Assembly: GCA_031082005.1 (NCBI GenBank)
Contig: JAVHLR010000001.1
Span: 377,251-441,250, forward strand
Direction of reading: 5' to 3'
DNA length: 64,000 nt
Origin: Patescibacteria group bacterium
GTDB taxonomy: Bacteria; Patescibacteriota; Patescibacteriia; 2-12-FULL-60-25
Shown here: positions 44,431-54,413 of the stretch, piece by piece
Layout of the letters: every line of letters starts with the position of its first letter
Position numbering within the stretch: the stretch's first letter is position 1
Notes under the pieces: generated by a model
The model's database searches: none
What the model was told of the DNA's origin: nothing
What the model saw: the letters and a program-made list of their open reading frames with translations, nothing else
Position numbers and translations under genes: made by a program

Positions 44431-44462
44431 TCATCTTTCTCTTCATAGGGAAAATAAATTGA

Positions 44463-44492
44463 AAACGCACCAGGCCGAGTGGCCTAGTGCGT
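44463..44492 (-). terminator. Terminator of the kinase-nucleotidylyltransferase gene
   Basis: A 12-bp stem (44465-44476 with 44481-44492) with loop GAGT. Read as minus-strand RNA the single irregular pair becomes U-G, and the stem is followed by TTTTC, so it belongs to the minus strand. Confidence 0.75.
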
Positions 44493-44502
44493 CTTGTGTA
44501 GT

Positions 44503-46824
44503 TCATTCCGGCACGAGCCGGAAAAAGATAGTTTCGTCCCCGTCCGTGAAGCTCATCCGCTCATAGCGCAGACGACGCCTCCGTCCGTCGCGAAGTCGTA
44601 GTGGTGTTTCCCGCTCGTAGGGTTGGACGATGGTCGCTCCCAGGGTTAGAGCGATGACTTCCTCGGGCAGGTCGTACTTCCTGACTCGGACGTCGAGTGG
44701 AGTCCAGTCCGCACCAGCCACGGAAGCGACCACTTTTCCCGGTAGGAATTCGACCGGCGTTTCGGCATAACGCTCCCGGATCTCTCGGAAAGTCATGATC
44801 TGCTCGACGCCTTCGGCCGCATACAGCCGTGATGCATGCTCATCCTCGCGCTTGATCGCGTCGCGCAGCGTTTGGCCCCATGAACGCACCTCGTATTCTT
44901 CGTTCGGCGTACCGAAAACGGATTTTTGGTCCAGTATCATGAGGCCGGGAAAGATATCACGGATTGTCACATTCGACGACGCGACTGCCACGACGTCCTC
45001 ATATCCGGGCATCATAGCGAAGTGCAAGCGGTGCAGCTCGTCCGTTCCGAAGTACGGCGTAAGCATGAAGCTGAACGATGCTGGGTCGTAACCCCGCGCC
45101 AAGAGCGATCGCGCCACCATCTTCATCACGATCCATTTGGGCAACGGATCACGCTCGGTGATTGTGTAGGAACGCTGAAGCGAAATCTTGACGTGATACC
45201 CCAGGTCGAGCAATCGGCTGATGTAGTCGATGTGGCCGTAGTGGGGGATGCCCATGCGCGCCGGGAAGAGCACGGTGTTCTTCTCGCGACGATTCTTAGC
45301 CGCACGCCGCGTGAGTTTGAGGTTCTTGGGCGCTTCCGTTTCCGGGAACAACGCATCAGCCACCTCGTTGGCATCCGGTCGGCCTCGTGGATCCTTCGCC
45401 AGCATTTCGCGGATGAGAGTGAGTCTCTCGTCGGCGAAGTCGATTTCCGGATGATGCTCGTACGGCATGAGTGCATTGGCTAGCGAGAACTTGAGCACGG
45501 CTTGCTCGCGATGTTCGCCTTTATGCTCGAGCTCGTCGCACGTCACGAACGGCAGTCTGCCATATAGTAGTTGGTGGAAGAGCAGTCCGAGCTGGAAGAT
45601 GTCGCTTGCGGTGGACGCTTTGCAGTGTAGCGTGACCTCTGGCGGCGCGAACTTGGGGTCCAAGATGTAGCTCACGACTTCACTTCCGTCGTCCACGTCC
45701 GGTTCACGTCGGCTGGCATTGAAATCGAACAGGCTGACTCCTTCGTGACTGACCATGACGTTATCCGGTCGCAGATCGAGATACAGAATCCCGCGCAGGC
45801 CCGGACGGCAGTGCAGACTGGCTAATGTCTCGGCAATCGCACCGACCACGGCGCAAGCCGCGTCCTTGTCGAGCAACTGCCCTGGGTGGACGTAGTCAGC
45901 CAACGACTGTCCGTACACATACGACCTGATCATGAACTCCGTGCCGTCGGCGAGTTTGAATTCGCCGTAGTGACTTGGCACGTCAGCGATATCGGTAATC
46001 AGCGGGAACAGATTCGCCTCCTCATCGAGGTTCGCGCCTATCCGCTCTTCTTCGTGCGTCAGTACTTCCTTGAAGACCTTGATGATCCCGTCGGAATCGA
46101 GCGCGAGATAGATGTTGCTGCAACGCGTTAGGCCGTCTTTGCCTTGGGCTAGCTGCCGCAAGATGCGGATTCCGTTCTCGTCGGCATAGCGGCGGAACAG
46201 GCTGTCCACTTCGTCACGTCTGTTCGGAGGTGTCGGGACGACGAACTCACGGCCTTCGGCGATGGCATGGAGCAGCTCGCGGCGCACTTGCGGATAGTGC
46301 GGATCTTCATCCGCTGCGCGGACGACCTCATCCCAGAACTTCGTCTGGTCAGGATACTCCTGTGCTACCAGTATCTTGAGTGCGGCGACATCCTTGGGAT
46401 CGACGAAAGACACGCCAGCTTGCTCGTCTCGATAGACATCAAACCAGCGCACTCCGCAGCGCATGAACCATTCCGCGAAGTCCGGGACCGAAAGGCTTTC
46501 GATGCCCGTGTAGAGCCCGATCCGGCGGATTTCCTGCACAGCTTTGGTTTCGCCGAAGGCTCGTGCGATCTCGAGGAGGTCCTTGAGCACGTCGAAGCGC
46601 TTCAGCTTGCAGAATTGTCGGACGGCTGGAATGAGATGTCGTCCGTCGCCAGAGAAGCAGGCGAGATGCGCATACGCCGCGACTTCGATCGCGTATTTTT
46701 TTGCACCGTCATCGCCTTCGATCGTATCGGCGGCGCGGTCGATGGCTTGCCACATGGCCGGACCCTCAAGTCCGACCGCTGCAGAGATGACTTTCCTCAA
46801 CACGGTCGTCTTGATATCTGACAT
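44503..46824 (-). CDS. Protein kinase fused to an HxGH nucleotidylyltransferase
   Basis: 773 residues, no membrane helix. Residues 1-210 are helical and unrecognised. Residues 220-490 form a protein-kinase fold with all key residues: Lys in IIKVF (249), Glu in the C-helix, catalytic loop YLDLRPDN (Asp350, Asn355), DFN replacing DFG (Asp367) and PPE (396). Residues 515-690 resemble NMNAT/cytidylyltransferase domains: a TVLFPARMGIPHYGH strand-loop with HxGH at 528-531, an ITERDP stretch, and GQTLRDAI near 650 in the place of the SxTxxR motif. A further about 80-residue beta-rich end is unassigned. The frame is open to 46863 but AAGGAT precedes ATG 46824. Last gene of the six-gene cluster. Fusion of these two domains is not one I know. 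Confidence 0.8.
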   Translation of the reverse strand: MSDIKTTVLRKVISAAVGLEGPAMWQAIDRAADTIEGDDGAKKYAIEVAAYAHLACFSGDGRHLIPAVRQFCKLKRFDVLKDLLEIARAFGETKAVQEIRRIGLYTGIESLSVPDFAEWFMRCGVRWFDVYRDEQAGVSFVDPKDVAALKILVAQEYPDQTKFWDEVVRAADEDPHYPQVRRELLHAIAEGREFVVPTPPNRRDEVDSLFRRYADENGIRILRQLAQGKDGLTRCSNIYLALDSDGIIKVFKEVLTHEEERIGANLDEEANLFPLITDIADVPSHYGEFKLADGTEFMIRSYVYGQSLADYVHPGQLLDKDAACAVVGAIAETLASLHCRPGLRGILYLDLRPDNVMVSHEGVSLFDFNASRREPDVDDGSEVVSYILDPKFAPPEVTLHCKASTASDIFQLGLLFHQLLYGRLPFVTCDELEHKGEHREQAVLKFSLANALMPYEHHPEIDFADERLTLIREMLAKDPRGRPDANEVADALFPETEAPKNLKLTRRAAKNRREKNTVLFPARMGIPHYGHIDYISRLLDLGYHVKISLQRSYTITERDPLPKWIVMKMVARSLLARGYDPASFSFMLTPYFGTDELHRLHFAMMPGYEDVVAVASSNVTIRDIFPGLMILDQKSVFGTPNEEYEVRSWGQTLRDAIKREDEHASRLYAAEGVEQIMTFREIRERYAETPVEFLPGKVVASVAGADWTPLDVRVRKYDLPEEVIALTLGATIVQPYERETPLRLRDGRRRRLRYERMSFTDGDETIFFRLVPE

Positions 46825-46879
46825 TTTTAGTATCCTTGTGAAAGGCCAAACGGACTTAGGCATGTCTCTTGCGAGGCAT

Positions 46880-46901
46880 GACCAACACGTTGGTCTTTTT
46901 T
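46880..46901 (+). terminator. Terminator-like hairpin on the opposite strand
   Basis: GACCAA, loop CACG, TTGGTC, then six T on the plus strand. No plus-strand gene ends here, so it may be an orphan or limit antisense transcription into the cluster. Confidence 0.5.
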
Positions 46902-47014: not shown

Positions 47015-47043
47015 TTAATATTTTAAAAACGAACAATAGAGAA

Positions 47044-47073
47044 GGGCCGCACCGCGAGTGTGCAGTGCGGCCC
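47044..47073 (-). terminator. GC-rich hairpin after vWA gene 2
   Basis: GGGCCGCAC/GTGCGGCCC, 9 bp perfect, 17 nt after the stop codon. T-run weak. Confidence 0.5.
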
Positions 47074-47089
47074 CTTGTCGAGTCTAGCA

Positions 47090-48136
47090 TCAGGAGAAGA
47101 CGATCTTGATCATCTTTTGGATCTCGTCTTCCGGCGCCTCGAGGTACTTGCCGAAGCGACGAATCGCTTCTCTGGCGTTCATGTCGGTGTTCGCGCCGAA
47201 AATCGGTTCCTTGAGCCACTTCTCGTACAACGTCATGAGGAACGCCTGCACGGTCTGGTTCCCCTGGTGGCGCGCGATGAGGAAGAGTAAGGCGTTGCCC
47301 ACGATGCCGCAGCGGTGCTCGTGCGAAGGGATCGTCGAGAGGTCGATGAGGTCGAACGGCAGGCGCTTCTTGTCCGTGATGAACTTCTTCTGCAGCTCGG
47401 CATAGTCGCGCTCCGCTCCGCTTCCGATGACCTCGAACGAGCGATAAGTCTCGTGGACGCGTTTGAGCGAGTCATGCCAGTCGCGGCCGCGCGGACATCC
47501 GTCGTCGCCACGCATGCCCATGCCGTGCGCGACCACGTCGGTCACCAGGTAGAGCCGTCGATCCTGTACGTGCCCGAAAGGCAGATCGCAGGCGTCCCAC
47601 AGGGCACACTCGATCGCCTCGGGCTCATCTCCGCCGCTGGCTCCGACGACGTGGCGGATCGAAGAGTGGAGGATCTTGTCGCCGGTCTCGTCTGGTGCCA
47701 CGTAGTCCACAGCCTGCCAGATACGCGATCCGTCGCAATGGTCCGAGAAGTAGACGAAGCAAATGCGTGACCCGGGGTCGATCGCCTTGAGCACGGCCAG
47801 CAGGTAGCCGGACGAACTCTTGAGGTGGTTCGCGATCTTCTCGTTGCTGCCCGAGTTGTCGATGAGTACGACGTGCACGCGCTCGGCTTTCTCGTCCGGT
47901 GCCTTGACCTGAAGATGGACGAGCGACTTGTCGTAGACTTCGCGCTCGTTACGGACTTCGCGCGGCTTGGCGCTCTTCGCCACCACCGCTTTTCTGTCTG
48001 TTTCGAGACGCCGTGCGCGATCCGCACGCGCCTCATCGGCGCGCCGTCGTTCGGCTTCGGTCTCGCCGGTGCTGCGGTATGCCTCGAAGTCACGCTCGAC
48101 GCTGCCGGAATATCCACGATAGCTGTTTCCGCTCAT
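47090..48136 (-). CDS. vWA-domain protein 2 of the cluster
   Basis: 348 residues, soluble. A charged helical N-terminus rich in Arg/Glu (about 15-65) precedes a von Willebrand A domain. The metal-ion-dependent adhesion site is intact: DNSGS (93-97), GGDEPEA as the second loop, and the Asp of YLVTDVVAHG. The C-terminal about 100 residues are helical. vWA proteins of this kind bind partner proteins through Mg2+ and often work beside AAA ATPases, kinases or chaperones. GGAGAG 7 nt upstream of the ATG. Confidence 0.85.
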   Translation of the reverse strand: MSGNSYRGYSGSVERDFEAYRSTGETEAERRRADEARADRARRLETDRKAVVAKSAKPREVRNEREVYDKSLVHLQVKAPDEKAERVHVVLIDNSGSNEKIANHLKSSSGYLLAVLKAIDPGSRICFVYFSDHCDGSRIWQAVDYVAPDETGDKILHSSIRHVVGASGGDEPEAIECALWDACDLPFGHVQDRRLYLVTDVVAHGMGMRGDDGCPRGRDWHDSLKRVHETYRSFEVIGSGAERDYAELQKKFITDKKRLPFDLIDLSTIPSHEHRCGIVGNALLFLIARHQGNQTVQAFLMTLYEKWLKEPIFGANTDMNAREAIRRFGKYLEAPEDEIQKMIKIVFS

Positions 48137-48255: not shown

Positions 48256-49560
48256 TCAGAAGCTGCGGAAGTCGCGTTCCGGCTCGGCGTCGCTGCCGCC
48301 GTTGCGCTTGCGCGGCGAGGCAGGAGCCGCTGCTTTCATCGCCTGGAGCTTGTCCCACGGGATGTTGATCCCGCGGTTCTGCAACGCGATGATGTAGTAG
48401 GGGAGCTGCTCGGTCGAGACCTCGCCTGCTGCGAGCTTCATGACCGCGAGCACGTAGCTGACCAAGTCACGTTCAAGCCTCACATACTCGGCCGTGAGAC
48501 CAGCGCCGAGCTTCTTCAGCATCTCGTCGCGATTGGCGGCGCCGATGGCGGCGGGAAGCTGCGGATCCTCGAGCACCTTCTTGATGCGCAAGGTGTCGTG
48601 CGCCAGGGCGCGGGCTACTGGTATGCCCGTGCCGGCGAACATCTTGTTGAAGTTCTCGATGACCGTCGAAGCCGAGTCGAGGACGGGAGCCGTATCCGGA
48701 TGATCCATCATGCCGGGCATCATGGCTGCCCCGCCGCTCATCATGCTGGCGAAGCCAGCCATCATAGCCGCCGGGTTGTTCATCCGAGTCTGCCACAGCT
48801 CCTGCCAGCCGGTGAGCTTCTGCTGGAAGCTATCGAGCAGAGCCCAGAGACCACCCATGCGGTCGAGGAGCTTCCGCTTGCGCGCCTCGCTCATGAAGTG
48901 CCCCGGGACGCCCATGGCCTGCAGGACTTCGCCGTAACGCCGTTCCGCGACCTGCCTCTGCAGAGTGTAGTAGGCATCGCTGACGGGTTCTTCGAGCGTC
49001 TCGGCGTGTTGCTCCATGAGCGCCACGAGCTGATCCGGCAGGTCGTACACTCCGAGCTGCTTCGCTAGGAGGACACGTAGAGCAGCGTTGACTTCGGTCG
49101 CTCCGACCTTGGCCACCCCGCCGACGCGCAGCGCCGAGAGGAACGTGTCATCGCTCGGCGGTTCGGGCAAGAGACCGACCATACTGATCGCCGAGGGCGC
49201 CGCTACCTTGGGGGTCGTCGGCTCCACCAGCTTCGGTGCCGCTGCGCCGCGCAAGTCCTTGATCGCCTTATTGAGCTTGACCGGCGGCACGCCGCTGAAG
49301 AGCCCACGGATCACATCGTTGCCGGCGCACTCCGGATCGGCGAGGGCTTCGAGACCTTCGTCGTTCGCATCGCCGACAAGCTTCTGGAGCTCGGTCGTGA
49401 CGGCGTCGTACTCTTTGCCGATGGACTTGGCGAAGGCTCCGACCTTCTCCTGCCACTTGGCAGAAGCTGTCGTCGCGGTGATCTCGGGTTTCGGAGCTTC
49501 GAGAACAGCGGGCAGTGTTGCTTCAGTCGTCGTTGCATCGTTGTTGGGCGTGTCTGCCAT
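48256..49560 (-). CDS. Unknown protein of the kinase/vWA cluster
   Basis: 434 residues, no family recognised. A low-complexity N-terminus rich in Thr/Ala/Glu/Pro (1-45) is followed by helical segments, a Pro-rich linker (about 110-135) and a mainly helical C-terminal half. The latter includes a Met/Gly-rich stretch (about 275-295) with the look of a hydrophobic flexible loop, and the tail is basic then acidic. No Cys pairs or nucleotide-binding motifs. AAGGAGAG lies before ATG 49560; the open frame to 49617 adds no plausible domain. Position between the PurA-like enzyme and a vWA protein suggests an adaptor or substrate. Confidence 0.7.
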   Translation of the reverse strand: MADTPNNDATTTEATLPAVLEAPKPEITATTASAKWQEKVGAFAKSIGKEYDAVTTELQKLVGDANDEGLEALADPECAGNDVIRGLFSGVPPVKLNKAIKDLRGAAAPKLVEPTTPKVAAPSAISMVGLLPEPPSDDTFLSALRVGGVAKVGATEVNAALRVLLAKQLGVYDLPDQLVALMEQHAETLEEPVSDAYYTLQRQVAERRYGEVLQAMGVPGHFMSEARKRKLLDRMGGLWALLDSFQQKLTGWQELWQTRMNNPAAMMAGFASMMSGGAAMMPGMMDHPDTAPVLDSASTVIENFNKMFAGTGIPVARALAHDTLRIKKVLEDPQLPAAIGAANRDEMLKKLGAGLTAEYVRLERDLVSYVLAVMKLAAGEVSTEQLPYYIIALQNRGINIPWDKLQAMKAAAPASPRKRNGGSDAEPERDFRSF

Positions 49561-49613
49561 GACGGTAACTCTCCTTCTGACGTTGGGAACGAGCACGTTG
49601 CGGAATTGGCTTT

Positions 49614-49645
49614 CCATCGGCTAAGTCCGCAGGCAAAACCGATGG
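49614..49645 (-). other. Leader hairpin
   Basis: A CCATCGG/CCGATGG 7-bp stem with an 18-nt loop lies between the proposed internal promoter and the start of the 434-residue protein gene. Confidence 0.4.
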
Positions 49646-49717: not shown

Positions 49718-51082
49718 TTAGGCTGCTCGGCTGGCTGACGCGGAACGTTCGAACGTCTCATCGGCCGTCGGCCCGGTAGAGCAGACGGTGACCGGCGTCT
49801 GGAGCGCATGCTCCAAGCGTTCGATGAACGCGTCCCGCTCGGTCGACCAGGTTTCGTATTGCGCTCGGGTCGTCGTCAGTTGCCGAGTGATCAGCTCCTG
49901 ACGCTGCAGGCTCGGAGCGTCGGCATGCTCGATGCCGACAATCCTGTTTCCTCGTGTTGCGAAGAGCGTCTCGTCCGGGCTTTCCGCTGTGTAGGCCGAG
50001 CAGACTCGCGTATGCTCGTCCAAGCGATCAAGATGCGTCAGCACGATCTCATCGATCCCACCAAGCGCCTCGATGGCGTACTTGATGGCGATAGGGTCGA
50101 GATGGCCGATACGGAAGTCTTGCTGCCAGGTGTCACACTTGTTGTGTGGCTCCGGACGCAAAGTCTGGTCAAGCGCAGCATCCTCTGTCATGAACGGTCC
50201 TGCGCCGTGCCGCGTGGCATATGTGCGCATGACGCCCATCCGCGTGATGCCGCCCATGAATCCGATCTGCTCCAACATCCGTTCCGCGTTGCGGAAAGTC
50301 ACGTCTGACCGCGTGCAGTGGGGGAAGAAACCGTGGACTTCGTCCAGCAGCACTCCCTGCGCTCCCTCGAACACGGCCACGCCTTCGCGCTGCATGATCT
50401 CGGTCAGATACGCATCATCGACCGGTGTCACGAGTCTGATGAAGCGGCTGAACCATTCGGCACAGCGGATGCTTTCGCTCGGATCGTTGAGCACATCTAG
50501 CATGAGCTGGGCGTCGTCGTTCTCCGGGATGCCGATAAGCTTTGCTGCCTTGTCGCGGTTCATCTCTTGGACGAAGCGCAGCTTGCGTATCAGTACGTTC
50601 GGATTCTCCAGATCCCGGACGTACATGACCGCGTTGCCTTGTTCCAGCTTGTCTTGCACGGTCTCGAACACGCCGAGTCCGCAGCTGCCGTGGCGATCGC
50701 GCCCGCGCGACATTTCGCGCAGACGGTTCACGGCGATCTGGAACGGCGTCGTCACCAGAGCATCGCGCTCCACGGTCACGCGGCTGAAGATGTCATGGAT
50801 GCCGTACTTGGCGAGGTGCATGCCTTCAGACAGGAACGCCGTGGGATTCACCAACATGAAGCGCGAGAGGTGCGTCCGCACGCCCGGCACGAAACTGGCG
50901 CTGCCGAACTGCTGGAAGGCATGCTGTCGTCCGTCGGCCGTCACCACGTTGTGATGCGCGTTGCTCGCGCCGTTGTAGCGCACGACAGTGTGGACCGGCT
51001 TGGTTCGCGCCAAGTAGTCGACTGTCTTGCCTTTGCCTTCGTCTCCGTTCGCGATCCCTGCGATCAAGATGGCAGATGACAT
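49718..51082 (-). CDS. Divergent adenylosuccinate synthetase homologue
   Basis: 454 residues with the PurA fold. The GTP/catalytic loop NGDEGKGK (12-19) keeps the catalytic Asp14, and SNAHH (40-44) keeps the His equivalent of E. coli His41. VFEGAQG (237-243), TRHGAGP (290-296), THLD (349-352) and STGP (435-438) are further conserved. But the region that should read T-T-G-R-x-R-R and bind aspartate is DTWQQDFRIG (317-326), and the IMP-side TTGRGIGP is HGSCGLGV (131-138). It is therefore probably a GTP-dependent ligase with a changed nucleotide or amino-acid substrate. AAGGA precedes ATG 51082. Its place in a kinase/vWA cluster, not a purine operon, supports a special role. Confidence 0.85.
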   Translation of the reverse strand: MSSAILIAGIANGDEGKGKTVDYLARTKPVHTVVRYNGASNAHHNVVTADGRQHAFQQFGSASFVPGVRTHLSRFMLVNPTAFLSEGMHLAKYGIHDIFSRVTVERDALVTTPFQIAVNRLREMSRGRDRHGSCGLGVFETVQDKLEQGNAVMYVRDLENPNVLIRKLRFVQEMNRDKAAKLIGIPENDDAQLMLDVLNDPSESIRCAEWFSRFIRLVTPVDDAYLTEIMQREGVAVFEGAQGVLLDEVHGFFPHCTRSDVTFRNAERMLEQIGFMGGITRMGVMRTYATRHGAGPFMTEDAALDQTLRPEPHNKCDTWQQDFRIGHLDPIAIKYAIEALGGIDEIVLTHLDRLDEHTRVCSAYTAESPDETLFATRGNRIVGIEHADAPSLQRQELITRQLTTTRAQYETWSTERDAFIERLEHALQTPVTVCSTGPTADETFERSASASRAA

Positions 51083-51107
51083 GATCCGTTCCTTTGCGAG
51101 AATGGAA

Positions 51108-51136
51108 GACCGGGACACCTGATCGGCGTCCCGGTC
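51108..51136 (-). terminator. GC-rich hairpin between cluster genes 2 and 3
   Basis: GACCGGGAC/GTCCCGGTC, a perfect 9-bp stem with 11-nt loop, just downstream of the vWA 1 stop codon. Without T-run; partial attenuation is possible. Confidence 0.45.
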
Positions 51137-51149
51137 GGGGAGAGTAGGG

Positions 51150-52076
51150 TTAGAGCGGAGTCACGCGCGAGCGACGTTTGCGGCCGCCTGCTTGCGGTTC
51201 CGCGTTGTCTTCGGTTGTGGCGTTTGCGACGTCGCCGCGTTTGGCTCGCTCGATAGTTCCGACCCAGTTCGCGATGATCTCGCTCACCTTGGAAGGATCG
51301 TGCATCACGATACAGCGTTCGGATCCGAACAGGTCTGCCCAACGGCGCTGAACCTCATTCAAGTAGCTGTCTTCGTTGCCGCCGATGCTGGTCGGCAGGA
51401 TGAAGAGCACTTCGAAGCGCTCTTTCACCTCGCGTACGATCCGACCCAGCGCGATGTTGTCGTCCAGGTCGTCGCCGATGTAGTCCTTGACCAGGCGTCG
51501 ATCCACTTGGGCATACGGCAGCTCGTCGCCGATGATCACGAGGCAGCCCTTGTGCTGGCGCTTCTCCCAGCAGTCGATGCTGGTGTGCCGCGCCATGGCG
51601 TAGAGCGCCAGGTCATAGGACTCGTGGCCGTTGCCGCCGCCCTTGCCCTCGAGGAAGAGCTGTCCGAGGCAGTCGTCGATCTTGAGGTCGGTTTCCCACT
51701 CGCCGACTTGGACGGGAGCGATCTCTCCCATGCCCGCGTCGCCGATGGCGCCGATCATCACCTGCGGATCCTTGACGCCGTGGCGCAGCAACGAACCCAT
51801 CAGTTGATTGAGGTTCTGCTGCAGCACCCGCGGGATCTTGCCCATGGAACCCGTCTCGTCGAAGAAGACCGTGATGGCGAGCGACTCCGGGAACTTGTCG
51901 CTGTCGCGACTTTCCCGCAGAGGCTTGCGCCGCAAGTCCATGGCCGGGTGACAGTGTCGCTCGCTCTCTGCGGCGCTCTGCATCTGACGATGGTGGACGA
52001 ACGCGTCCACACCCTGTTGGTCGCGCTTCGTCTGACGTTGCTGGAAGAACTTATTGCTCCAGGTATCCTTTGCCAT
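51150..52076 (-). CDS. vWA-domain protein 1 of the cluster
   Basis: 308 residues, soluble. An N-terminal basic helical segment (1-60) is followed by a vWA domain with MIDAS DETGS (73-77), a Gly-rich loop GGGNGHES, and the Asp of LVIIGDELPY. The tail is Arg/Lys-rich. The sequence differs strongly from the other vWA protein, so it is not a recent duplicate. The sequence before the ATG is GGAAAAGGAA. It starts 27 nt after the pseudokinase, the closest pairing in the cluster. TerY-type proteins are the nearest described comparison. Confidence 0.85.
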   Translation of the reverse strand: MAKDTWSNKFFQQRQTKRDQQGVDAFVHHRQMQSAAESERHCHPAMDLRRKPLRESRDSDKFPESLAITVFFDETGSMGKIPRVLQQNLNQLMGSLLRHGVKDPQVMIGAIGDAGMGEIAPVQVGEWETDLKIDDCLGQLFLEGKGGGNGHESYDLALYAMARHTSIDCWEKRQHKGCLVIIGDELPYAQVDRRLVKDYIGDDLDDNIALGRIVREVKERFEVLFILPTSIGGNEDSYLNEVQRRWADLFGSERCIVMHDPSKVSEIIANWVGTIERAKRGDVANATTEDNAEPQAGGRKRRSRVTPL

Positions 52077-52103: not shown

Positions 52104-53246
52104 TCATCTTTCGTCGTCATCCACGAGCCGCAATCTCGGCCGCATCTCGAACTTGTGATAGCGCGGCGGGCCGTAGTTGTTCCGCATGAAGCCGTCGAAT
52201 TCGCGGCGCAGCTCCCAGGCGCTATCCGGACGCTTGGCAGGCGCTGCGATGAGGCAGCTCCTCAAGAAGTTCTGCAGATAGTCCGGCACGCTTTGCGGTA
52301 GCCGATTGGTCCGCATGTCGCCGTTCAGGATGTACACCATGCACTTGGCGGCCATGTAGATGTCGGTCGCGGGCGTAGGCGATTCCTTGTCGCTGACTTC
52401 CATCGGATAGAAATCCTCGTAGTCGTCATGCTTGAGGCTGATGCGCTCGAAAGTCCGCATCGGGTCCACTGCCGCGCCGTTCCAGCCGATGATCTTGGCC
52501 GCATGGTCCGTCGGTTCGATCAGGAAGTTGCAGGGCACTATACCGCCGTGGATCACGAGATGACTGTGTGCATAGCCCAGCCCCTCGAGCAGACGGTTGA
52601 AGATCCAGACAGCAGTCTGGAATTCCACGCCCCGCGGGAAAGCCTCACGGACCTCCTCCAAGCTCCTGAAATTCGTCAGGTCTTCGAGCAGGACACCGTT
52701 CAGCATCCCTTCATCTCCGCAATCCGCGGTGAAGGCGCCGAGCATGTGCGGCAAGTAGCGCCGGAAGTGGCTGTGGAACGGATCGTCCGTCGTTTGGTCA
52801 GCCCCCATCCTGTTGAGGACGAAAGCCTCGCGTTGGATGAACCCGTTGCAGCCTTCTTCGCAAGCGAGTCTTGCTGTGCAAGAACGAGTTTCGCCGTCGA
52901 GCGTCCGTCGGCCTGCCAGCATGTCGCAGAGCGGATCCTGCCACAACACCCGTCCGAGCGAATACTCGCCCGGGAAAGCTGTGATGATCTGTTGCGGATC
53001 CGCCGGTTTGCGGTCGACAGAGGCTCGAGGCAAGGTGAGCTCGTTCAACTCGTTTTGGGCCTTGGCGTAGAGCAGGTCGAGCCGCTGTTGGAGCCCAGGC
53101 GTATCCACGGGAAGCACCAAGGAGAATCCTCGGTATTTCGTCTGTAGATCGCACAACCGTTCTTCGTAGGTTGTGCTGGTGGGCGAGCCGAAGAGTATCT
53201 CCGGATCGTCTTGGAACAGCAACGTCTCGATTCTGGGTTTCGGCAT
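52104..53246 (-). CDS. Pseudokinase-like protein, first gene of the cluster
   Basis: 380 residues. Residues 1-75 are helical and end LYAKAQNEL; the spacing recalls a degenerate J-domain without HPD. Residues 85-350 have kinase-fold organisation, but the catalytic residues are replaced: the beta-3 Lys position reads TARLA, the HRD loop is HGGIVPCN (233-240; His and Asn kept, Asp lost) and DFG is GWN (254-256). So it probably does not transfer phosphate but may bind nucleotide or the active kinase encoded at the other end. GGAAATG start context. The gene lies about 115 nt downstream of the cluster promoter. Confidence 0.75.
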   Translation of the reverse strand: MPKPRIETLLFQDDPEILFGSPTSTTYEERLCDLQTKYRGFSLVLPVDTPGLQQRLDLLYAKAQNELNELTLPRASVDRKPADPQQIITAFPGEYSLGRVLWQDPLCDMLAGRRTLDGETRSCTARLACEEGCNGFIQREAFVLNRMGADQTTDDPFHSHFRRYLPHMLGAFTADCGDEGMLNGVLLEDLTNFRSLEEVREAFPRGVEFQTAVWIFNRLLEGLGYAHSHLVIHGGIVPCNFLIEPTDHAAKIIGWNGAAVDPMRTFERISLKHDDYEDFYPMEVSDKESPTPATDIYMAAKCMVYILNGDMRTNRLPQSVPDYLQNFLRSCLIAAPAKRPDSAWELRREFDGFMRNNYGPPRYHKFEMRPRLRLVDDDER

Positions 53247-53348
53247 TTCCTGACCCCTTGGCTGATTCAGTTGTCTAAGGTGCTCATCCGTCTCCGGAGG
53301 AGCCGGCTAAGTTAACCATTTTAGCCGAGCTAGTCAAGAAACTGGGTG

Positions 53349-53369
53349 TGTCTTAATGACACTAAGACA
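53349..53369. promoter_or_regulatory. 21-bp palindromic operator candidate
   Basis: TGTCTTA, 7-nt centre, TAAGACA, a perfect inverted repeat overlapping the -10 and the predicted start site of the cluster promoter: the position of a repressor site. It contains TTAGTGT on the minus strand. Confidence 0.7.
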
Positions 53370-53395
53370 TTAAACCCGGCATAAAATATTGTCAA
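53367..53395 (-). promoter_or_regulatory. Main promoter of the six-gene cluster
   Basis: On the minus strand TTGACA, exactly 17 nt, TAATGT. Predicted start near 53360, leader about 115 nt. A weaker TTGACT-N17-TAACTT lies about 50 nt further downstream. Confidence 0.75.
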
Positions 53396-53417
53396 GTACA
53401 CACTAAGTAAGGGAGAT

Positions 53418-53711: not shown

Positions 53712-54374
53712 TTATAACACGTCCGTATAGACCAATTTTCGCTGCTTGAAATGATAAAGCTGCGCCGGGCGATGCACGCCGCCTTTCTGCTTTTCACCCG
53801 AGGCATTGATCAGCCCTAAGGCCAGAATCTTTCGACGGAAATTCCGCTTATCTAAATCACGTCCTAAGATCGTCTCGTAGACCTTCTGCAGTTCTGTTAG
53901 CGTAAAATCCCGCGGCAGCAAACTCCAAGCGACGTTCGAGTATTCGAGCTTGCTTCTTAAGCGGTTGATGGCGGTTTCCGCGATCTGTTTGTGGTCATAA
54001 GCGAGCTTTGGCAAATCACTGGCCACGTACCACCCGATGTCGGAATATTTTGCGGCTGCTTTTAGTTTGACTTCAGAGGAGGGGAGTAAGGCGTAATATG
54101 CGACGCTGATGACGCGTCCGCGCGGATCGCGTTTTGGTGCGTCGAAAGTCGCGAGTTGCTCCAGGAATACATCAGATACGCCCGTCTCTTCTTTCAGAAT
54201 GCGCCGCGCCGCGTCCTCTGTCGTCTCGTTTTGGCTGATGAAACCGCCGGGAAAAGCCTTTTGCCCTTTGAACGGATCCTTATTCATGCCGATCAAGAGC
54301 ACTGAAAGCTCGCCATCCTTGATGCTGAAGATGACTGAATCCACAGCCACGCGGATATTCTGCATTTTTTCCAT
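53712..54374 (-). CDS. NrtR-type regulator (degenerate Nudix domain plus winged helix)
   Basis: 220 residues. The N-terminal Nudix fold has the box G-x5-E-x7-R-I-L-x-EE-x-G-V; the Glu of the REU element is Ile, so hydrolysis is doubtful. The C-terminal winged-helix (about 145-215: FTLTELQKVYETIL, NFRRKIL, RPAQLYHF) is the NrtR DNA-binding type. NrtR proteins sense ADP-ribose and repress NAD-biosynthesis genes. The near-consensus promoter puts the transcription start about 4 nt before ATG 54374, so that start is preferred to the longer frame. It lies directly upstream of the kinase/vWA cluster, on the same strand. Confidence 0.88.
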   Translation of the reverse strand: MEKMQNIRVAVDSVIFSIKDGELSVLLIGMNKDPFKGQKAFPGGFISQNETTEDAARRILKEETGVSDVFLEQLATFDAPKRDPRGRVISVAYYALLPSSEVKLKAAAKYSDIGWYVASDLPKLAYDHKQIAETAINRLRSKLEYSNVAWSLLPRDFTLTELQKVYETILGRDLDKRNFRRKILALGLINASGEKQKGGVHRPAQLYHFKQRKLVYTDVL

Positions 54375-54384
54375 ATTAGTGTTG

Positions 54385-54413
54385 ATAATACACGAAGTTG
54401 GGGCAAAAGTCAA
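54385..54413 (-). promoter_or_regulatory. Promoter of the NrtR-type gene
   Basis: TTGACT, 17 nt, TATTAT on the minus strand. The plus strand over the -10 reads TTAGTGTTGATAATACAC, a partial palindrome sharing TTAGTGT with the cluster operator. Confidence 0.75.

Follow-up and report, generated by a model that had tools for sequence, protein, structure and literature searches.

Nicotinamide mononucleotide adenylyltransferases (NMNATs) of the archaeal/NadM type, known from structures of M. thermautotrophicus (1ej2, 1hyb) and M. jannaschii (1f9a), have their fold, the HxGH motif, the first and last arginine and an asparagine in common with the C-terminal part of a gene of a Patescibacteria group bacterium. 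This gene (F0; 44503-46824, minus strand) encodes a fusion of a protein kinase and an NMNAT-like domain and lies on a stretch of 64,000 nucleotides (contig JAVHLR010000001.1, positions 377,251 to 441,250), which is referred to as the window and within which all positions are counted. Compared to the archaeal/NadM enzymes the fusion has replaced a Gly-Ser pair, a Thr and a D...W pair, and it carries an added protein kinase and an extra beta tail. The closest sequence relatives found are bifunctional NMNAT/Nudix proteins (NadM-ADPRP; 2qjo, 2qjt) and those of Patescibacteria (L030-L034, L049; L numbers designate loci and G numbers genomes). A similar ..F-V-P-G.. linker follows the NMNAT domain in the fusion and in most NMNAT-Nudix relatives, but the latter possess a Nudix domain and all compared NMNAT motifs, whereas the fusion has an 80-residue tail without detectable Nudix similarity and the kinase. 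NadR, composed of helix-turn-helix, NMNAT and ribosylnicotinamide kinase parts, also combines an NMNAT fold with a kinase in one chain and has a regulatory role. Its kinase is a small-molecule kinase, whereas that of the fusion is Hanks-type; no P-loop kinase family was matched by the fusion, and the NadR fold was a weaker structural match. A gene of the NrtR family, together with palindromes of N7 spacing at nrtR and NAD genes, was found here as in the known NrtR regulons of NAD metabolism, but the candidate regulon includes, unlike those described, a cluster of kinase, VWA and PurA-like genes. A literature search, with subscription journals and preprints largely outside its scope, revealed no protein kinase-NMNAT fusion. 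The domains and the type of regulon are known; their combination and wiring are new as far as the literature was searched.

The reading best supported for the gene is a signalling kinase linked to NAD, in which the NMNAT-like domain serves to sense a ligand or has an altered specificity. In the specific form that we favour, with a probability of about 0.42, the NMNAT-like domain most likely senses a dinucleotide with an AMP moiety (NAD or ADP-ribose) and adjusts the kinase accordingly, and the cluster is part of an NrtR regulon. The presence of such a fusion in a cluster apparently governed by a sensor of NAD breakdown suggests that protein phosphorylation and NAD metabolism are connected in a previously unrecognised way. 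The gene is composed of the following parts:

44503-46824, minus strand: kinase - NMNAT-like fusion F0, 773 aa plus stop (translation, Pfam, models)
46210-46824, minus strand: helical N-terminal region, residues 1-205 (DSSP of the full-length model)
45340-46209, minus strand: Hanks-type protein kinase domain, residues about 206-495 (PF00069, structural match, motif table)
44755-45279, minus strand: NMNAT-like (NadM/archaeal type) nucleotidyltransferase-fold domain, residues about 516-690 (model, Foldseek, VIA, hhalign)
45232-45243, minus strand: HxGH motif (H-Y-G-H), residues 528-531
44506-44754, minus strand: small beta-rich C-terminal tail, residues about 691-773 (models)
44462-44495, minus strand: terminator-like hairpin after the fusion gene

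The original prediction had described a kinase fused to an NMNAT-like domain without giving a strand. The minus strand of 44503-46824 is an open frame, while the plus strand contains many stops. An alternative in-frame ATG 39 bases upstream (46863) would result in a form of 786 aa (44503-46863). Judged by its matches, the fusion frame is not a chance product, because Pkinase is found above cut-off and the C-terminal 271 aa have long homologues elsewhere. Just upstream of the start of the 786-aa form a perfect inverted repeat of 6 pairs with a T run is present on the plus strand (46880-46895).

The domain that precedes the NMNAT-like one is a Hanks-type protein kinase with intact catalytic Lys, Asp and Asp. 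The Pfam family Pkinase (PF00069) was matched with an E-value of 5.8e-22 and 78.8 bits (gathering score 31.7). In a full-length AlphaFold model (predicted local distance difference test, pLDDT, 86.1; predicted template modelling score, pTM, 0.86) a helical N-terminus, the kinase, the NMNAT-like domain and a small beta tail follow each other, and the kinase part superposed on 6vzk with a VIA Z-score of 25.1 and a root-mean-square deviation (rmsd) of 2.7 over 250 residues. The residues K249, D350, N355 and D367 are located exactly where they had been predicted. For comparison 13 loci with the fusion were available, comprising the window, nine loci of a class sample (L021-L029) and L039, L042 and L045; duplicates were not counted (L035-L038, L040, L041, L043 and L044 equal L021-L024 and L026-L029, L058 equals L030, and L050/L051 overlap L026). 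The catalytic Lys, the HRD Asp and the DFG Asp are kept in all 12 fusions reaching those regions (L028 is truncated), while the Asn of HRDxxxxN is replaced by His in 3 of the 12. The glycine loop (LAQGKDGLTRCSNIY) is atypical compared to the canonical GxGxxG. The helical N-terminal region is missing from L045, the shortest full relative (561 aa), the match of which begins at residue 223 of the 786-aa form.

Sequence families gave little hint of the nature of the C-terminal half: no Pfam family was found above cut-off beyond residue 500, no NMNAT family model of NCBIfam matched at E-values up to 1, and the sole match was TIGR00125 with 16.4 bits (cut-off 27.7). A profile of the C-terminal domain did not retrieve any NMNAT from the PDB sequences, the best hit (0.0028, a fimbrial protein) being taken as chance, and a fold search was therefore needed. 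An AlphaFold model of the last 271 residues, built on an alignment of 12 relatives, reached a pLDDT of 84.6 and a pTM of 0.86. The top PDB matches in Foldseek were the NadM NMNAT/Nudix protein 2qjo (1.3e-7) and NMNAT from M. thermautotrophicus (E about 5e-7, TM by target 0.76-0.81). VIA-align superposed model residues 14-188 on the archaeal NMNAT 1hyb with Z 18.4 and rmsd 2.2 over 158 residues at 18% identity, with the HxGH motif within the matched range; the next-best fold families, NadR (1lw7, Z 13.2; 8x7f, Z 12.9) and phosphopantetheine adenylyltransferase (PPAT), were near Z 13. The fusion domain shows 28% identity to the Patescibacterial NMNAT-Nudix proteins (E 2e-17; hhalign 99.7%, E 3e-27). 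A structure model with a fold search of this region had been set beforehand as the test of the predicted NMNAT-like fold, and the C-terminal half indeed superposes on archaeal/NadM NMNATs. As modelled, the domain thus has a real NMNAT fold. A Pfam MutS_I match on the C-terminus (E 0.15) was discarded as chance. Despite the similar linker, hhalign profile comparison gave no support for the tail being a reduced Nudix domain (Prob 2).

The active site of the domain is partly kept and partly replaced. HxGH (H528, H531) was confirmed at residues 528-531, and all 13 fusions retain this motif together with the first Arg, the Asn and the final Arg. A predicted TLR motif is present at T652-L653-R654, but T652 varies among the fusions and is not the canonical Thr of xxSTxxR. 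At the latter position, three residues before the Arg, the window fusion carries Gln, and across the 13 fusions 9 Glu and one each of Gln, Lys, Ser and Ala were found; Thr thus occurs in none of them but in each of the seven NMNAT-type relatives used for comparison (six NMNAT-Nudix proteins and a 180-aa protein, L062), while the Arg is kept throughout. Furthermore, Gly-Ser after strand 2 is changed to Gln and a variable residue, and the D...W pair is lost, whereas both are retained in 7/7 of these relatives. In archaeal NMNATs the Trp sits in the nucleoside pocket, at the nicotinamide side. The replaced positions are themselves conserved among the fusions, which looks like selected change and not decay. 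ATP binding in the superfamily involves HxGH, Gx(D/N) and xxSSTxxR; contacts to the adenine and to the beta and gamma phosphates of ATP have been proposed for residues of xxSSTxxR (PMC3509593). Because the three motifs kept by the seven NMNAT-type relatives are replaced, the domain is, on its motifs, NMNAT-like and is not filed as an NMNAT. NAD synthesis by this domain received no support from motif retention.

A link to NAD is supported by the neighbourhood. The window cluster is headed by a gene of the NrtR family (PF21906, 2.5e-27; PF00293, 2.8e-15; both above cut-off), the true start of which is probably an internal ATG. The protein is filed as NrtR-family only, because it stays below the NCBIfam NtrR equivalog cut-off (164.9 vs 400 bits). 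The region between this gene and the fusion is organised as follows:

54376-54396: operator-like palindrome with 1 mismatch, overlapping the -10 element of the putative nrtR promoter
53712-54413, minus strand: NrtR-family regulator (Nudix and NrtR winged helix)
53345-53406: operator-like palindromes with 2-3 mismatches, upstream of F3, the first gene of a co-directional run
52104-53246, minus strand: F3, pseudokinase-like
51150-52076, minus strand: F4, second von Willebrand factor A (VWA)-like protein (DETGS; motif, no Pfam match)
49718-51118, minus strand: F5, adenylosuccinate-synthetase-like (PurA-like; PF00709, 6.4e-63)
48256-49617, minus strand: F2, unannotated 453-aa protein, in 7/13 loci
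47090-48136, minus strand: F1, VWA-like, DNSGS motif of the metal-ion-dependent adhesion site (MIDAS) type
47042-47075, minus strand: terminator-like hairpin of 14 pairs between F1 and the fusion gene

NAD-metabolism genes or regulators are found nearby in 4/13 loci (window, G380, G346, G222). G380 harbours an island of NrtR, NMNAT-Nudix, ADP-ribosylglycohydrolase, nicotinate phosphoribosyltransferase (NAPRT), NAD kinase, phosphoribosyl pyrophosphate synthetase and NadE+NMNAT genes, followed by F13-F3-F4-F6-F5-F2-F1-F0. A NadE+NMNAT chain is located just upstream of F2-F1-F0 in G346, and in G222 an ADP-ribosylglycohydrolase gene directly follows the fusion, with a NadD-like gene nearby and NrtR upstream of F3. 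NrtR winged-helix genes are present in 8 of the 10 fusion-bearing genomes searched, not always near the fusion. In the genome of the window (G000) NAPRT was not matched, and PF02540 was matched weakly and only in part.

The operator-like palindromes follow the pattern TTAGTGT-N7-ACACTAA, with a perfect copy in the nrtR promoter of G380. All four window matches with up to 3 mismatches fall into two promoter regions (three upstream of F3, two of them overlapping), while the expectation for the whole window is 0.84 matches, and a count of four was reached in 2 of 100 shuffles. With a weight matrix from 5 sites of relatives the three best window scores (21.9, 19.0 and 15.1) were obtained at these promoters, the next being 9.8; 100 Markov controls gave a mean maximum of 11.6 and a largest value of 18.1. 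In the relatives (36 rows of sites, duplicate loci included) such sites precede F2-F1-F0 (L022), F3 and ADP-ribosylglycohydrolase (G222) and NMNAT-Nudix genes (L030, L031, L049). Genome-wide, four genomes contain 14 sites with up to 2 mismatches, 10 of which are located at nrtR, NAD genes or the kinase cluster. Near the fusion in L021, L024, L025, L027, L029, L042 and L045 all NrtR-like site scores were below 13. The operator of mycobacterial NrtR is also an N7-spaced palindrome, and NrtR operators vary between lineages (PMC6800001). The predicted coupling of signalling to NAD is thus supported at the level of context, by the NAD genes or regulators in 4/13 loci, NrtR and the shared palindromes.

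The fusion is rare and scattered across Patescibacteria, to which 12 of the 13 loci belong. The C-terminal 271 aa were matched in 4/96 relatives, own genome included, and in 14/380 genomes of the class sample (10 with the fusion type, 4 with only the NMNAT-Nudix type); a phylum sample of 379 genomes yielded only the own genome and one weak match to a frame of 363 aa. Groups named in the genome scan are Uhrbacteria, Falkowbacteria, Shapirobacteria and one 'bacterium' record (L037, equal to L023). The fusion is carried by the same-genus genome G001 (Uhrbacteria record, L035), while no match was found in two other genomes of the genus (G002, G003). A phage origin was considered because the remaining locus, L045, lies on a 416-kb contig catalogued as viral (IMG/VR). 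Its neighbours on the contig include PARP, topoisomerase IB and amino-acid enzymes, and phage and plasmid collections gave no match to the C-terminal domain. The PARP (L045:2939-4387), with WGR and regulatory domains, is encoded about 4 kb from the trio of VWA, fusion and F2 genes.

Characterised NrtRs respond to ADP-ribose (PMC4666351, PMC6800001). Since they release DNA on binding it, a cluster belonging to an NrtR regulon would be made when NAD is consumed. The NMNAT-like domain would then be a ligand-binding regulatory domain: the retained HxGH, first Arg, Asn and last Arg are the AMP-phosphate contacts, whereas the lost residues would hold the leaving phosphates of ATP and the nicotinamide side. 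We infer from this that sensing is favoured and that, with the Ser/Thr and the Trp lost, a dinucleotide product, for instance NAD or ADP-ribose, may be preferred over ATP. Binding of the dinucleotide would switch the attached kinase, which might phosphorylate the VWA protein (F1), F2 or the pseudokinase/VWA partners (F3/F4), and these could in turn act on the PurA-like enzyme or on NAD enzymes. If true, bacterial kinases wired to NAD status would represent a new input for protein phosphorylation, and the cluster would offer a handle on NAD management in Patescibacteria, some of which (as here) show no NadE or NAPRT. In the full picture an NMNAT scaffold would have become an ADP-ribose/NAD receptor that directly drives the kinase in one chain, NrtR would respond to the identical signal on the DNA, and VWA and pseudokinase proteins would act as partners, all within genome-reduced Patescibacteria that have to scavenge NAD precursors; this picture is rather doubtful. 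The domain is also a natural experiment in which a housekeeping nucleotidyltransferase was turned into something else, and its kept and lost residues name the test.

Several observations weigh against sensing within an NrtR regulon. Ligand, kinase activity and substrate are all predicted, and HxGH may be strictly conserved just as well because the domain is still catalytic. The palindrome outnumbers its reversed control in only one of the four genomes with matches (sites vs control: G000 3 vs 1, G346 4 vs 4, G222 5 vs 8, G380 2 vs 2; none in G001), so that its position is informative but its frequency is not. In the window a terminator-like hairpin stands between F1 and the fusion gene, which makes read-through to the latter from the NrtR site uncertain. 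The fusion of G001 occurs without NrtR and operator, and F1 is missing from the 20 kb read there. Nine of the 13 loci have no NAD gene among their annotated neighbours (selected neighbours; some contigs are short), bar the PARP in L045. Furthermore, NrtR relatives also control sugar genes (PMC4666351).

The main rival to sensing, nearly as plausible and still tentative, is a working adenylyltransferase with a new acceptor, either a phosphorylated metabolite other than NMN or a protein, the kinase being its controller or its target. It would account for the invariance of HxGH, both arginines and the Asn in 13/13, and positions that are invariant specifically in the fusions (PKW..KM, SWG) point to a pocket that was remodelled but is still under selection. 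Neighbouring genes are PurA-like, uridine-kinase-like and pyruvate-kinase-barrel-like, and with these enzymes the adenylyltransferase would make a specialised nucleotide. However, the Ser/Thr of xxSTxxR, the proposed holder of the beta and gamma phosphates (PMC3509593), is replaced in 12/13 fusions, with Thr in none. An ordinary NMNAT under kinase control, which would use scavenged NMN to provide NAD where NadE and NAPRT are absent from the genome, agrees with the fold and with the missing NAPRT match and weak PF02540 match of G000, which would therefore need NMN-to-NAD conversion. Nevertheless we regard it as improbable, as the fusions have lost the Gly-Ser, Thr and D...W of all seven NMNAT-type relatives, NCBIfam offered TIGR00125 below cut-off in place of an NMNAT model, and G000 holds another NMNAT-like candidate. 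Least probable appears a role in anti-phage defence or conflict, with an NAD- or nucleotide-directed effector gated by the kinase and VWA proteins. The architecture of VWA and kinase resembles themes of conflict systems, the distribution is patchy and PADLOC kinase models match the kinase (mad6, 1.3e-21; PD-T4-6), but among the 8 proteins scanned PADLOC matched nothing except kinase domains, the cluster genes include no recognisable effector, nuclease or PP2C, and the neighbourhood is largely biosynthetic.

The composition of the cluster varies between loci. F1 adjoins the fusion in 11/13 loci, and in L045 the consecutive genes F1, F0 and F2 each overlap the next at their ends. The assignment of F1 to VWA proteins is based mainly on its motif, as Pfam gave a sub-threshold VWA_CoxE match alone (E 0.064). 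F3, F4 and F5 were each found in 5/13 fusion loci, a pyruvate-kinase-barrel-like gene (F6) in 4 and F13, which is uridine-kinase-like, in 2. Outside the fusion loci, F3-F4-F5 are grouped in L056 and L057, and F4-F5 in L059. The HRD Asp of F3 is replaced in 5/5 (Asn in 4/5, Gly in the window), and DFG is changed in 5/5 to a tryptophan-containing motif, with its Asp kept in 3 and lost in the window. F4 of the window comprises 308 aa compared to 486-494 aa in the relatives. F5 scores below every PurA equivalog cut-off listed, but the Asp of GDxxKG and the His of the xHN motif are kept in 5/5. F5 is the sole PF00709 match in the genome of the window.

Among the shorter NMNAT-Nudix relatives (L030-L034) the next gene encodes NAD kinase in 4/5 (L030-L033), followed by NAPRT in L030. 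The 180-aa NMNAT-like protein of the window's genome (L062:4666-5208; G000:C3:544665-545207) is encoded separately and matches archaeal NMNAT models weakly. Two further domain combinations were observed. NadE (glutaminase and synthetase) and NadD-type NMNAT form one chain of 821-843 aa beside the kinase cluster in L022 (2664-5129) and L049 (10596-13127), and NadD-type NMNAT and NAD kinase are joined in one chain in L055 (5619-7016; family scan) and L064 (10895-12271; by similarity only).

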